Program-made: the position numbers and the translations under genes | Shown: positions 33,955-59,076 of the stretch, piece by piece | How positions within the stretch are numbered: the first letter of the stretch is position 1 | How the letters are laid out: every line of letters begins with the position of its first letter | Notes under the pieces: generated by a model | Databases searched by the model: none | Told to the model about the DNA's origin: nothing | What the model saw: the letters and a program-made list of their open reading frames with translations, nothing else | Assembly: GCF_025061645.1 (NCBI RefSeq) | Contig: NZ_JANYMP010000012.1 | Coordinates: 186,001 to 250,000 of the forward strand | Direction: 5' to 3' | DNA from: Umezawaea endophytica | Lineage (GTDB): Bacteria; Actinomycetota; Actinomycetes; Mycobacteriales; Pseudonocardiaceae | DNA length: 64,000 bases

Positions 33955-34002
33955 ATGCAGCGCACGCTCGTTCTCGTACTTCCCAGGCGCGTCGACGCCT
34001 AG
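33955..34002 (+). CDS. ilvB leader peptide
   Basis: A 15-codon open frame MQRTLVLVLPRRVDA with five consecutive Leu/Val codons (ctc gtt ctc gta ctt). Non-preferred codons are used in a GC-rich genome, as expected for a sensor. It ends at TAG 119 bases before ilvB. Ribosome stalling at Leu/Val codons when charged tRNA is scarce would change folding of the RNA downstream. It is too short for ordinary gene finding. Confidence 0.85.
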   Translation: MQRTLVLVLPRRVDA

Positions 34003-34065
34003 GCAGTAGAAGCTGCGTCGACGCGCGACCCTCGTACGACCCGTTCGGGTTGTCGAGGGTTTTTT
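33987..34065 (+). terminator. ilvB attenuator
   Basis: A terminator stem ACCCTCG-ACGACCC / GGGTTGT-CGAGGGT (34028-34060, one bulged T, one G.T) is followed by six T residues (34060-34065). Upstream, GCGCGTCGACGC at the end of the leader peptide frame (33987-33998) is perfectly complementary to GCGTCGACGCGC (34015-34026). That pairing is under the control of the translating ribosome, the usual layout of amino acid attenuators. Confidence 0.85.
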
Positions 34066-51492: not shown

Positions 51493-52140
51493 CGGGGGAC
51501 GGGGGACGGGGTCTTGCCGGATGAGGATCGCTGCCACGACTGGGGGACCCACGATTGGGTGAAGTGTGGCGGGGTGGAGGGGGATGGGTTGGGTGGGATG
51601 AAGGGAGCCGCGTTGGCAGGGCTGCGGCTGGTGGGGTTTGGCTGGGCGGGGATTGGCAGGGTGGTGGTGGATGGCAGGGCCGGGGCCGGTGAGAGTGGGG
51701 GCTGGGCCATGGCTGGCTGGGAACGGGTGGGCGGGCTACGGCTGGCCGGGTGTGAATGGCAGGGCTGCGGCTGGGGGGAGAGTGACTGGGTGGTGTGGTG
51801 GCAGGGCTACGGCTGGGTGGGTGTAGCTAGGTGGAGTCGCGATGGGCTAGACGCGATGGGCTGAGACTCACGACCGGCCAGCGCAACACTGGCTGACGCA
51901 CGGCTGCCGACCCACACTTGGCAACCCGCAGCCGCCGACCCACACCTGCTGACCCAGGCATGTCGACCCACCTGCTGACCCGCACTTGTCGACCAACCTG
52001 CCGACCACGGCAACCTGCGCCTGCCGACCAGCCTGCTGACCTACGGCTGCCGACCCGCACCTGCCGGCCCACCCACCCACCTGCCGGGGCCCTCCCGACC
52101 CACAGCCCACCCAAGCCACCCTCTGGACCCACAACCCAAG
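51493..52140. repeat. Low-complexity G-rich then C-rich repeats
   Basis: Part of a 1.0-kb gap. From ~51540 to 51850 the + strand is G-rich with recurring GGCTGGG/GGCAGGG words; from ~51870 to 52130 it switches to C-rich degenerate copies of a ~22-base unit such as CTGCCGACCCRCACCTGCTG. Long open frames exist on both strands but encode only Gly/Trp- or Pro-type low-complexity sequence, so I call no gene. Confidence 0.65.
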
Positions 52141-52174
52141 TGCGCCAACGGTTTTCAACCATCCGGTGCCAACT

Positions 52175-52293
52175 GCGGTCGATTTTACTTGGGGGATTTG
52201 CCCCTTAAACTCGAGTCGGACGGCGGCTTCACCTCCCCGCCGTTTTCGTCCGACCAAGGGGCAAATCTAGGGGCCCCAAGTCAAATCGACCGC
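52175..52293. repeat. Palindromic repeat element, copy 2
   Basis: A 119-bp copy of the element at 13791-13908. Arms here are GCGGTCGATTT / AAATCGACCGC; the middle blocks TACTTGGGG, GATTTGCCCC and the loop CTTCACCT are unchanged. The differences between copies in the outer arms and central stem preserve pairing. It lies between the repeats and the cimA leader; the ~140 bp between it and the leader is C-rich with nothing I recognise. Confidence 0.85.
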
Positions 52294-52436
52294 CCCCAAC
52301 GCCCCCACCACACACCCCCACCCCAAACAGACCCCACCGGACCACCCCCACCCGACCCCCACCGAACCAAACCCAAAATGTGAGAACCCCAGTCCGACAC
52401 CTGGTACCAACGCCAAACCTGTGGCACCATCGCCGA

Positions 52437-52481
52437 GTGGCTCAGAACACCGTGATCATTATTGATGAGCGCGCCGGGTAG
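52437..52481 (+). CDS. cimA leader peptide (Ile-rich)
   Basis: A 14-residue frame MAQNTVIIIDERAG (GTG start at 52437), or nine residues, MIIIDERAG, from an internal GTG at 52452. It has a Val codon (the internal GTG) and three consecutive Ile codons, atc att att; ATT is rare in this genome. It stops inside the first of two hairpins in front of cimA, the first enzyme of the citramalate route to isoleucine. No ribosome-binding site is evident for either start. Confidence 0.7.
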   Translation: MAQNTVIIIDERAG

Positions 52482-52540
52482 GTGCTTCCCAAGCACCCGG
52501 CGCGCTGACCTCTCGCATCCCGCGGGGGGTCTTTTTGTTT
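52468..52540 (+). terminator. cimA attenuator
   Basis: Hairpin A (52468-52506) pairs AGCGCGCCGG with CCGGCGCGCT and GTGCTT with AAGCAC; its left arm overlaps the end of the leader peptide frame. Hairpin B (52507-52531) is GACCTCTCGC-ATCCC-GCGGGGGGTC followed by TTTTTG, a textbook intrinsic terminator. A ribosome stalled on the Ile codons would cover the left arm of hairpin A, so the right arm could interfere with the terminator. Confidence 0.8.
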
Positions 52541-52573
52541 TCCCGGACCTGCCACCCACCACAGGAGAACCCC

Positions 52574-54169
52574 GTGAGCAGCCTCCCGCTCGGCGACACC
52601 TTCCACGTCTTCGACACCACCCTCCGGGACGGTGCGCAGCGCGAGGGCATCACGTACTCCGTGACCGACAAGCTGGCCGTCGCACGCCTGCTGGACGGTC
52701 TCGGGGTCGGGTTCATCGAGGGTGGCTGGCCGGGGGCGATGCCGAAGGACACCGAGTTCTTCGCGCGGGCCAGGGCGGAGCTGGACCTCAGGCACGCCAA
52801 GCTGGTCGCGTTCGGCGCGACCCGCAGGCCGAACACCAGGGTCGACGAAGACCCGCAGGTCAAAGCGCTCCTCGACGCGAACACGGACGTCATCACCCTC
52901 GTCGCGAAGTCGGACCGCAGGCACGTGGAACTCGCGCTGCGGACCGACGAGGCCGAGAACCGCGCGATGGTTCGCGACACCGTGCGGTACCTCGTGGACC
53001 ACGGCAGGCGGGTGTTCGTCGACGCCGAGCACTTCTTCGACGGCTACGCGCACGACCCGGACTGCGCCCTGGGTGTCCTGGAGTCCGCGGTGGACGGTGG
53101 CGCGGACGTCGTCGTGCTGTGCGACACGAACGGCGGCCAGCTCCCGCTGGGGCTGGCCGAGACGGTCGAACAAGTGATCTCCCGCACGGGTTTCCGTGTC
53201 GGGATCCACTGCCAGGACGACACGTCCTGCGCGGTGGCGAACACCGTCGCGGCTGTGCAGGCTGGGGCGACCCACGTCCAGTGCACCGCGAACGGGTACG
53301 GCGAACGGGCGGGCAACGCCGACCTGTTCGCCGTCGTCGGGAACCTCGTGACCAAGCTCGGCCTTCCGGTGCTACCCACCGAATCGCTGGCCGAGCTCAC
53401 CCGCGTTTCCCATGCCCTCGCCGAGATCGCGAACATCGCCCCCCACACCCACCAGGCCTACGTGGGGGCGTCGGCTTTCGCCCACAAGGCGGGACTGCAC
53501 GCGAGCGCGATCAAGGTTGATCCGGAGCTGTACAACCACATCGATCCGGACACCGTCGGCAACGGCATGCGGGTACTGGTCACCGAGATGGCGGGCCGGG
53601 CGAGTCTCGAGCTCAAGGGACGTGAGTTCGGAATAGACCTGGCCCGTCGGCCCGAAGCGGTCACGAACGCGGTGCGCAAGGTGAAGGAGCTGGAGGCGCG
53701 CGGCTGGTCGTTCGAGGCGGCGGACGCCTCCCTCGAACTGCTCCTGCGCCAGGAGCTGTCCGAATTGGACGAAGCGCCGTTCGTGCTGGAGTCCTACCGG
53801 GTCCTGCTGGACCGCCGCTCCGACGGCGAGATCGTGTCCGAGGCCACGGTGAAGGTGCACGTGGCGGGCGAGCGGGTGATCGAGACCGCCGAGGGCAACG
53901 GTCCGGTGCACGCGCTGGACGCGGCGCTGCGCAAGGCGTTGCTGCCGCACCTGTCCTGGTTGGACAGCGTGGAGCTGTCCGACTACAAGGTGCGCATCCT
54001 CGCCGAGGCCCCCGGCACGGACGCGGTGACGCGGGTGCTGGTGGAGTCGACCGACGGCGAGCGCGAGTGGACGACGGTCGGCGTGCACGGCAACATCGTG
54101 GAGGCGAGCTGGCTGGCCCTCTGCGACGCTCTGGTGCACAAGGCGATGCGGGTCCGCGCCCTGGTTTAG
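52574..54169 (+). CDS. cimA: Citramalate synthase
   Basis: A 531-residue enzyme of the DRE-TIM family: FDTTLRDGAQREG at the N terminus carries the catalytic Arg-Asp, HCQDDTSCAVANTVAAVQAG and CTANGYGERAGN the metal ligands, and a C-terminal LeuA-type regulatory domain (~400-531) completes it. The segment IEGGWPGAMPKD is typical of citramalate synthase rather than isopropylmalate synthase. It condenses pyruvate and acetyl-CoA to start threonine-independent Ile synthesis. AGGAG precedes the GTG start. The Ile leader in front supports the assignment. Confidence 0.88.
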   Translation: MSSLPLGDTFHVFDTTLRDGAQREGITYSVTDKLAVARLLDGLGVGFIEGGWPGAMPKDTEFFARARAELDLRHAKLVAFGATRRPNTRVDEDPQVKALLDANTDVITLVAKSDRRHVELALRTDEAENRAMVRDTVRYLVDHGRRVFVDAEHFFDGYAHDPDCALGVLESAVDGGADVVVLCDTNGGQLPLGLAETVEQVISRTGFRVGIHCQDDTSCAVANTVAAVQAGATHVQCTANGYGERAGNADLFAVVGNLVTKLGLPVLPTESLAELTRVSHALAEIANIAPHTHQAYVGASAFAHKAGLHASAIKVDPELYNHIDPDTVGNGMRVLVTEMAGRASLELKGREFGIDLARRPEAVTNAVRKVKELEARGWSFEAADASLELLLRQELSELDEAPFVLESYRVLLDRRSDGEIVSEATVKVHVAGERVIETAEGNGPVHALDAALRKALLPHLSWLDSVELSDYKVRILAEAPGTDAVTRVLVESTDGEREWTTVGVHGNIVEASWLALCDALVHKAMRVRALV

Positions 54170-58847: not shown

Positions 58848-58919
58848 TGGGGTATGGTGTAATTGGCAGCACGGCTGATTCTGGTTCAGTCAGTCTAGGT
58901 TCGAGTCCTGGTACCCCAG
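58848..58919 (+). tRNA. tRNA-Gln (anticodon CTG)
   Basis: A 72-nt cloverleaf. The acceptor stem is TGGGGTA/TACCCCA, the anticodon loop TTCTGGT gives anticodon CTG, and the T-arm contains GGTTCGAGTCC. No encoded CCA. In bacteria with GatCAB this tRNA is charged with Glu by GltX and then amidated. Confidence 0.93.
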
Positions 58920-59003: not shown

Positions 59004-59076
59004 GGCCCCGTCGTCTAGCGGCCTAGGACGCCGCCCTCTCAAGGCGGTAGCGTGGGTTCGAATCCCATCGGGGCTA
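59004..59076 (+). tRNA. tRNA-Glu (anticodon CTC)
   Basis: A 73-nt cloverleaf. The anticodon stem-loop is CCGCC-CTCTCAA-GGCGG (anticodon CTC) and the T-arm GGGTTCGAATCCC; the acceptor stem begins with a G.T pair. It lies 84 bases after tRNA-Gln and is followed by a strong terminator. Confidence 0.93.

Follow-up and report, generated by a model that had tools for sequence, protein, structure and literature searches.

A putative isoleucine-coded attenuator in the leaders of actinomycete cimA genes

We analyzed a stretch of 64,000 nt from Umezawaea endophytica (contig NZ_JANYMP010000012.1, positions 186,001 to 250,000 of the forward strand), which is called the window below and whose coordinates are used throughout. 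CimA, citramalate synthase, supplies isoleucine synthesis. Upstream of its gene, positions 52437-52541 were resolved by sequence reading and folding into a short upstream open reading frame (uORF), a hairpin (H1) and an intrinsic terminator (T), and the following features were assigned.

52401..52430, + strand: putative promoter, with -35-like CTGGTA (52401-52406) and -10-like CACCAT (52425-52430), by eye
52437..52481, + strand: leader peptide uORF encoding VAQNTVIIIDERAG and a stop codon, by direct reading; probably leaderless
52455..52463, + strand: putative regulatory Ile codons ATC ATT ATT, shortly 5' of H1, with the rare ATT over-used
52468..52506, + strand: hairpin H1 (P1), proposed stall-dependent antiterminator, from folding, arm search, covariation and masked folding
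52507..52541, + strand: intrinsic terminator T with U-rich tract, abutting H1, from terminator scan, folding and covariation
52563..52567, + strand: Shine-Dalgarno AGGAG of cimA, by direct reading
52574..54169, + strand: cimA, citramalate synthase, GTG start (TIGR00977)

The uORF reads GTG GCT CAG AAC ACC GTG ATC ATT ATT GAT GAG CGC GCC GGG TAG, and the -10-like hexamer lies 6 nt ahead of its start; a sigma-70 consensus scan of the leader region found no promoter. Each arm of H1 is 12 nt long (52468-52479 and 52495-52506), the two being 100% complementary, and the uORF stop codon (52479-52481) has its first base within the 5' side of the hairpin. The stem of T (52507-52531) has 10 bp and leads into TTTTTGTTTT, and the GTG of cimA lies 33 nt past the end of the U-rich tract at 52541. 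The terminator scan returned two overlapping hits at T compared to 0.4 +/- 0.7 in shuffles, and the leader folded with a z-score of -4.29 (0/200 shuffles equally stable). The first-pass annotation had described a Val-Ile-Ile-Ile frame that ends inside a hairpin, followed by an intrinsic terminator before cimA. All of these parts are present, with the frame starting at the upstream GTG (52437), and the identity of cimA is supported by a score of 618 bits against the citramalate synthase equivalog TIGR00977 (cut-off 450).

Other features were noted in the surrounding DNA. An intergenic palindromic repeat at 52160-52300 (arms 52175-52194/52274-52293 and 52195-52206/52256-52267) has 41 matches in the genome including itself, at 78-100% identity, and represents a dispersed repeat family. 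The DNA before the putative cimA promoter (51500-52390) is a long intergenic region of low-complexity look, G-rich and then C-rich by eye. Two tRNA genes (Rfam RF00005) are located 3' of cimA, at 58848-58919 and 59004-59076.

We assessed the conservation of the leader among cimA genes, which were found in 139/150 family, 234/296 class and 218/296 phylum genomes. The family sample comprised the 300 nt upstream of cimA at 110 Pseudonocardiaceae loci (30 + 80, the window's own included and some genomes represented twice). The uORF, H1 and T were present in all 110, and the 109 matched at first comprised 87 distinct sequences; one locus (L038), whose contig ends early, was missed by the first motif scan and was examined separately. 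The class sample comprised 60 cimA loci hand-picked among the matches listed, from 56 genera of which four were taken twice. A covariance model matched 45 of these on the expected strand (E<=1.6e-6), and an anatomy script for H1 and T, which accepts H1-T gaps of 0-4 nt only and requires GCGC-like arm ends, found 40. The 15 loci without a covariance-model match included five from one family (f98), six from another (f91) and four from three other families; in the five f98 loci, another gene seems by eye to end immediately before cimA.

Chance occurrence was rare in these searches. The anatomy script recovered 150/170 real cimA upstream regions compared to 14/850 dinucleotide-shuffled ones. In the 11-Mb genome, a covariance model built from 41 sequences, the window's cimA leader among them, found a single place at E<=1, which was the cimA leader. 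The pattern ATYATYATY-N5-GCGC was likewise genome-unique at this leader, although its uniqueness alone is weak evidence because 3 occurrences were counted for the reversed control pattern. The model itself picked a further fourteen loci that precede a cimA-like gene, with CimA-like identities of 52-68% over the matched part (range for L123-L137), and 11/14 are from a single genus. This genus (g53) is probably Streptomyces, because three of its members have an ilvB leader identical to the published S. lividans ilvL. It was noted that the H1 region of the probable Streptomyces loci (L125-L130, L132-L136) is much longer and still adjoins the terminator (match 1501 to about 1620). One hit (L137) came from beyond the class; the gene after it codes for a CimA relative (52% identity), and the leader encodes AIIIIR followed by a stop codon.

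Covariation was examined in two alignments. The family alignment (A2) held 41 entered of 50 sequences kept, two loci (L032 and L034) having failed the trimming pattern. Both helices were paired in 98.7% of its cells and 7 pairs had two-sided changes; none of 500 shuffles reached the paired-cell and two-sided values, and the exception among the five measures was further pair types, which 39/500 shuffles reached. Its invariant columns are located within the Ile codons, both stems and the U-tract. The wider alignment of 58 distinct sequences extended beyond the family and, being fitted to the covariance model, leans towards that model; 96.5% of its cells pair, 14/20 pairs are two-sided and 102 cells carry two-sided changes. 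Here too 0/500 shuffles reached the observed values, and slid structures dropped to 38-61%. One H1 pair was unpaired in 11/41 sequences of A2 and another in 19/58 of the wider alignment. Three wrong-strand matches were left out of alignment A4. A comparison of orthologous upstream regions had been proposed as a check on the Ile run and the stems, and from this examination the Ile codons, the place of the stop codon, the hairpins H1 and T and the distances between them were found to be conserved, with covarying stems.

The reading frame was then considered across the 150 parsed leaders, where it was chosen for the longest Ile run. At least two consecutive Ile codons precede H1 in 147 of them, the longest run being 3 in 102 leaders, 2 in 42, 4 in 3 and 1 in 3, and a run of at least 2 occurs in all 110 family loci. 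In 134/150, 5 nt separate the last Ile codon from H1. In all 150 leaders the stop codon is found between -4 and +13 nt relative to the start of H1 (-4 to -2 in 21, +10 or +13 in 129). In Kutzneria sp. CA-103260 (L022 / L056), the uORF VALHTVIIIS stops right before H1, while its Kutzneria relatives stop inside H1. In 142/150, a usable start codon is preceded at 4-9 nt by a loose YANNNT hexamer (spacing 6 or 7 in 126), as would fit a leaderless uORF.

The choice of Ile codon was also distinctive. At 78 named loci (L089 and L093 excluded from the counts), the leaders contain 113 ATC and 112 ATT codons (n = 225), compared to 947 ATC, 37 ATT and 2 ATA over the initial 1,500 nt of cimA at the same loci (n = 986; ATT 3.8%), an enrichment of ATT in the leaders (Fisher exact test; p = 1.6e-61). 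Four genes of the window contain 82 ATC, 0 ATT and 1 ATA. Three loci of family f82 (L185, L196, L199), found by the covariance model only, have by eye a single Ile codon with Thr codons next to it or near it. Threonine is the other route to the isoleucine precursor, and these leaders may therefore sense both Ile and Thr.

We compared the cimA leaders with those of related genes. The window's own ilvB, 18 kb upstream of cimA, has a Leu/Val-coded leader, MQRTLVLVLPRRVDA and a stop codon (33955-34065). By eye, TAACGT lies 7 nt before its ATG, and an H1-like hairpin (33987-34026) is abutted by a T-like hairpin (34028-34060), with the terminator running to 34065. Two hairpins could be parsed in 28 of 30 class ilvB loci, and as in the cimA leaders they abut, with a gap of 0-1 nt in 22/28, a count that includes some doubtful parses: the parse failed for 2/30 and several more look wrong by eye. 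Among 21 well-parsed ilvB peptides picked by eye, all contain Leu or Val and none has two consecutive Ile. The leuA leader of the window's genome (L174) encodes VARALLLRCRDGV and a stop codon, and three branched-chain genes of one genome thus have three differently coded leaders. Three model hits elsewhere (L138, L149, L167) carry Leu runs before genes 28-30% identical to CimA, which were taken as leuA-like. In the sequences compared, the coded residue varies with the gene: cimA leaders carry Ile, ilvB leaders mainly Leu/Val and the leaders of leuA-like genes Leu. The claimed match between coded amino acid and pathway is borne out by this pattern.

From these comparisons, the cimA leader is, with high probability, a ribosome-mediated transcription attenuator that senses charged isoleucine tRNA. 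We infer the isoleucine response, the read-through and the leaderless start from the arrangement of the sequence. Transcription would start at or beside the uORF start codon, and the uORF would therefore probably be translated as a leaderless message. With sufficient isoleucine, the ribosome would run as far as the stop codon, located within H1 or immediately ahead of it, and cover the H1 5' arm, such that H1 could not form, T would fold and transcription would end before cimA. With scarce isoleucine, it would halt at the first Ile codons with its front edge just before H1, allowing H1 to fold and RNA polymerase to read on into cimA. Findings that count against an attenuator include the single Ile codon in three parsed leaders and, by eye, in L185, L196 and L199, the 15/60 class loci without a model match, the S. 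coelicolor ilvB leader in which codon mutations left regulation unchanged (cited in PMC1262725), and the S. lividans survey, whose leaders do not include one for cimA (PMC8079986).

Masked folding of the 150 leaders, in which the ribosome covers 12 nt beyond the A site, was consistent with the first part of this scheme. H1 (six basal pairs) was free with the ribosome at the first Ile codon (median 0.999), partly blocked at the last Ile codon (median 0.33) and blocked at the stop codon (median 0.000). With footprints of 9-16 nt, H1 was more probable by >0.3 when the ribosome was stalled than when it had reached the stop codon, in 133 to 149 of 150 leaders. T remained stable whichever state the ribosome was in: its median probability was 0.96 in one and 0.95-0.96 in the other, and in 112 to 134 of the 150 leaders it exceeded 0.9 in both. 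L116 was the sole leader of the 150 in which T changed by >0.3. Because T folds equally in both states, secondary structure alone predicts no switch.

An intriguing question is therefore how H1 would oppose T. The strongest rival to our reading is a classical attenuator in which the antiterminator shares bases with T, either through the H1 loop pairing to the T 3' shoulder or through the H1 foot extending into T. Such models have been published for the nearest characterised leaders, in excerpts that describe a P1-loop:P2-shoulder pairing for ilvB-II (PMC10272879) and, for C. glutamicum ilvBNC, a three-hairpin model in which terminator and antiterminator bases adjoin and overlap by a shared GCC trinucleotide (PMC11857589). 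In the cimA leaders neither arrangement occurs more often than expected by chance. Pairing of the H1 inner part with the T 3' shoulder beats shuffles in 7/109 sequences (p<=0.05; median p 0.37), which is about the chance rate, and pairing with the 5' shoulder in 0/109; two H1 hairpins whose inner part is shorter than 5 nt were excluded from this duplex test. H1 has an apical loop of 3-6 nt in 123/150 leaders, and it can be extended into T in 8/150, by 1-2 bp, with no overlap in 142/150. No shared-base antiterminator was thus found beyond chance by masked folding, loop:shoulder duplexes or outward extension of H1. We consider this classical mechanism unlikely, and because no antiterminator sharing bases with T was found, the cimA leader is not a textbook trp-type switch. 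The attenuator named in the first-pass annotation is accordingly supported by the comparative evidence (conserved Ile run, stems and covariation), but not in its classical, shared-base form.

If the Ile codons act as expected and there is no competition for pairing, H1 must oppose T in another way. The two hairpins touch in nearly all leaders: the H1-T gap is 0-1 nt in 146/150 by the script restricted to gaps of 0-4, and in 145/153 when gaps of 0-20 were allowed with no preference and T was chosen regardless of H1. In this wide scan, with 17/170 loci unparsed, the gaps were 0 (114 loci), 1 (31), 2 (4), 3 (1), 6 (1), 15 (1) and 19 (1). The RNA exit channel of the polymerase would probably not hold both H1 and T, and an H1 flush against the foot of T would stop T from closing there. 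Given that H1 and T are in contact and seldom have bases in common, we favour physical exclusion of T by H1 as the mechanism, provided that the element is an attenuator, although we hold this tentatively and at less than even confidence. The opposite arrangement, H1 helping T, is less plausible, as cimA expression would then fall at isoleucine scarcity. In a pyrBI-like mechanism the ribosome covers the terminator directly; here the stop codon (52479) is 28 nt from T (52507) and the Ile codons are farther, and this was judged unlikely. It is conceivable, if somewhat doubtful, that the cimA and ilvB leaders of Actinomycetes form one contact-exclusion attenuator family, in which an antiterminator hairpin that shares no bases with the terminator would stand flush against its foot, its presence would be set by the ribosome, and the codons alone would set the sensed amino acid.

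Three further readings were weighed against an isoleucine attenuator. A leader that responds to branched-chain amino acids or to general translation stress, and not to Ile specifically, would fit the Val before the Ile run in the window and many relatives and the single Ile beside Thr codons in family f82. However, Ile is the residue that is retained throughout the class, with Val and Thr present in some leaders and missing from others, and none of the 21 well-parsed ilvB leaders has two Ile in a row, such that this reading appears improbable. Very improbable is that H1 and T are one unregulated or insulating double-hairpin terminator with incidental Ile codons. The two do fold together in naked RNA, and clusters of adjacent hairpins are described as terminators in the available text of PMC8355165, but the Ile codons recur in 147/150 leaders, at a fixed distance in 134 and with a rare synonym over-used, a -10-like hexamer stands just before the uORF in 142/150, and ilvB and leuA-like genes have similar scaffolds with different codons. 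A metabolite riboswitch or T-box that senses Ile or its tRNA directly, with no uORF translation, has a precedent in the translational ileS T-boxes of Actinobacteria (excerpt of PMC1262725) and is hardly credible here, since no Rfam covariance model, the T-box included, matched the cimA leader at gathering score and the invariant columns of A2 lie within the Ile codons, stems and U-tract.

If the cimA leader is an attenuator, the isoleucine branch would have its own sensor, separate from that of the ilvB leader, which the same genome carries 18 kb away, and this sensor would serve a large group of antibiotic producers. The leader could also be used as an Ile-responsive part for strain work in Streptomyces or Amycolatopsis. 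We regard the contact between hairpins as its most interesting part. The excerpt of PMC1262725 cites earlier work in which classical attenuation failed to account for the ilvB and leuA leaders of S. coelicolor, and in which regulation was unchanged by mutations of candidate regulatory codons in the ilvB leader. This old puzzle is sharpened by the cimA leaders, which suggest why: the search found no shared-base antiterminator in them, and their hairpins stay in contact across natural variants.

Several known systems resemble the cimA leader, and the papers are cited here from excerpts. Leaders of ilvB with regulatory uORFs have been published for Corynebacterium, Mycobacterium and Streptomyces (PMC1262725, PMC10272879, PMC11857589, PMC13236596, PMC8079986). 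Like the cimA leader, these and S. lividans ilvL, which is reported as leaderless, combine a short branched-chain uORF, a hairpin, an intrinsic terminator and a biosynthetic gene (PMC1262725, PMC8079986). Unlike it, the ilvB leaders of the three genera carry mixtures of Leu, Val and Ile codons, and the gene is ilvB (PMC1262725). Corynebacterium ilvB-II and C. glutamicum ilvBNC share with the cimA leader a P1 largely spanned by the uORF and a P2 that is the terminator (PMC10272879, PMC11857589). Expression of a Corynebacterium ilvB leader reporter was weak in rich medium and strong in minimal medium (PMC10272879, PMC11857589), and codon and start-codon mutants of C. glutamicum support leader translation (cited in PMC11857589); one Val-codon mutant of ilvB-II made no difference (PMC10272879). 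The ilvB-II motif lies upstream of ilvB (PMC10272879), whereas the leader described here lies upstream of cimA and codes for Ile.

The M. tuberculosis ilvB1 attenuator, which has a uORF with LVVI codons and for which a short terminated transcript was seen, is similar to our proposal in that a ribosome at the stop codon would mask the antiterminator; it differs in gene and in codons (PMC13236596). Among the matches listed, no cimA match was found in the order-mates of family f2, which are probably mycobacteria. The LEU element of actinobacterial leuA also has a uORF with a run of end-product codons, and differs in having a pseudoknot or a hairpin over the Shine-Dalgarno sequence (PMC1262725), while S. 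lividans leuL1 is reported to be without a typical intrinsic terminator (PMC8079986).

Within the excerpts available, Seliverstov 2005 reports no conserved structures before genes of amino-acid pathways other than those named (PMC1262725), the S. lividans RNA-seq survey reports eight leaders and none for cimA (PMC8079986), and PMC8632094 contains no mention of cimA or citramalate. A cimA leader was not encountered among the full-text literature matches listed, and an earlier description in Lopatovskaya 2010 or Craster 1999 is possible. Judged by sequence and conservation, the leader is very likely an attenuator that responds to Ile-tRNA, as an Ile-coded variant, placed before cimA, of the known actinobacterial branched-chain attenuators.
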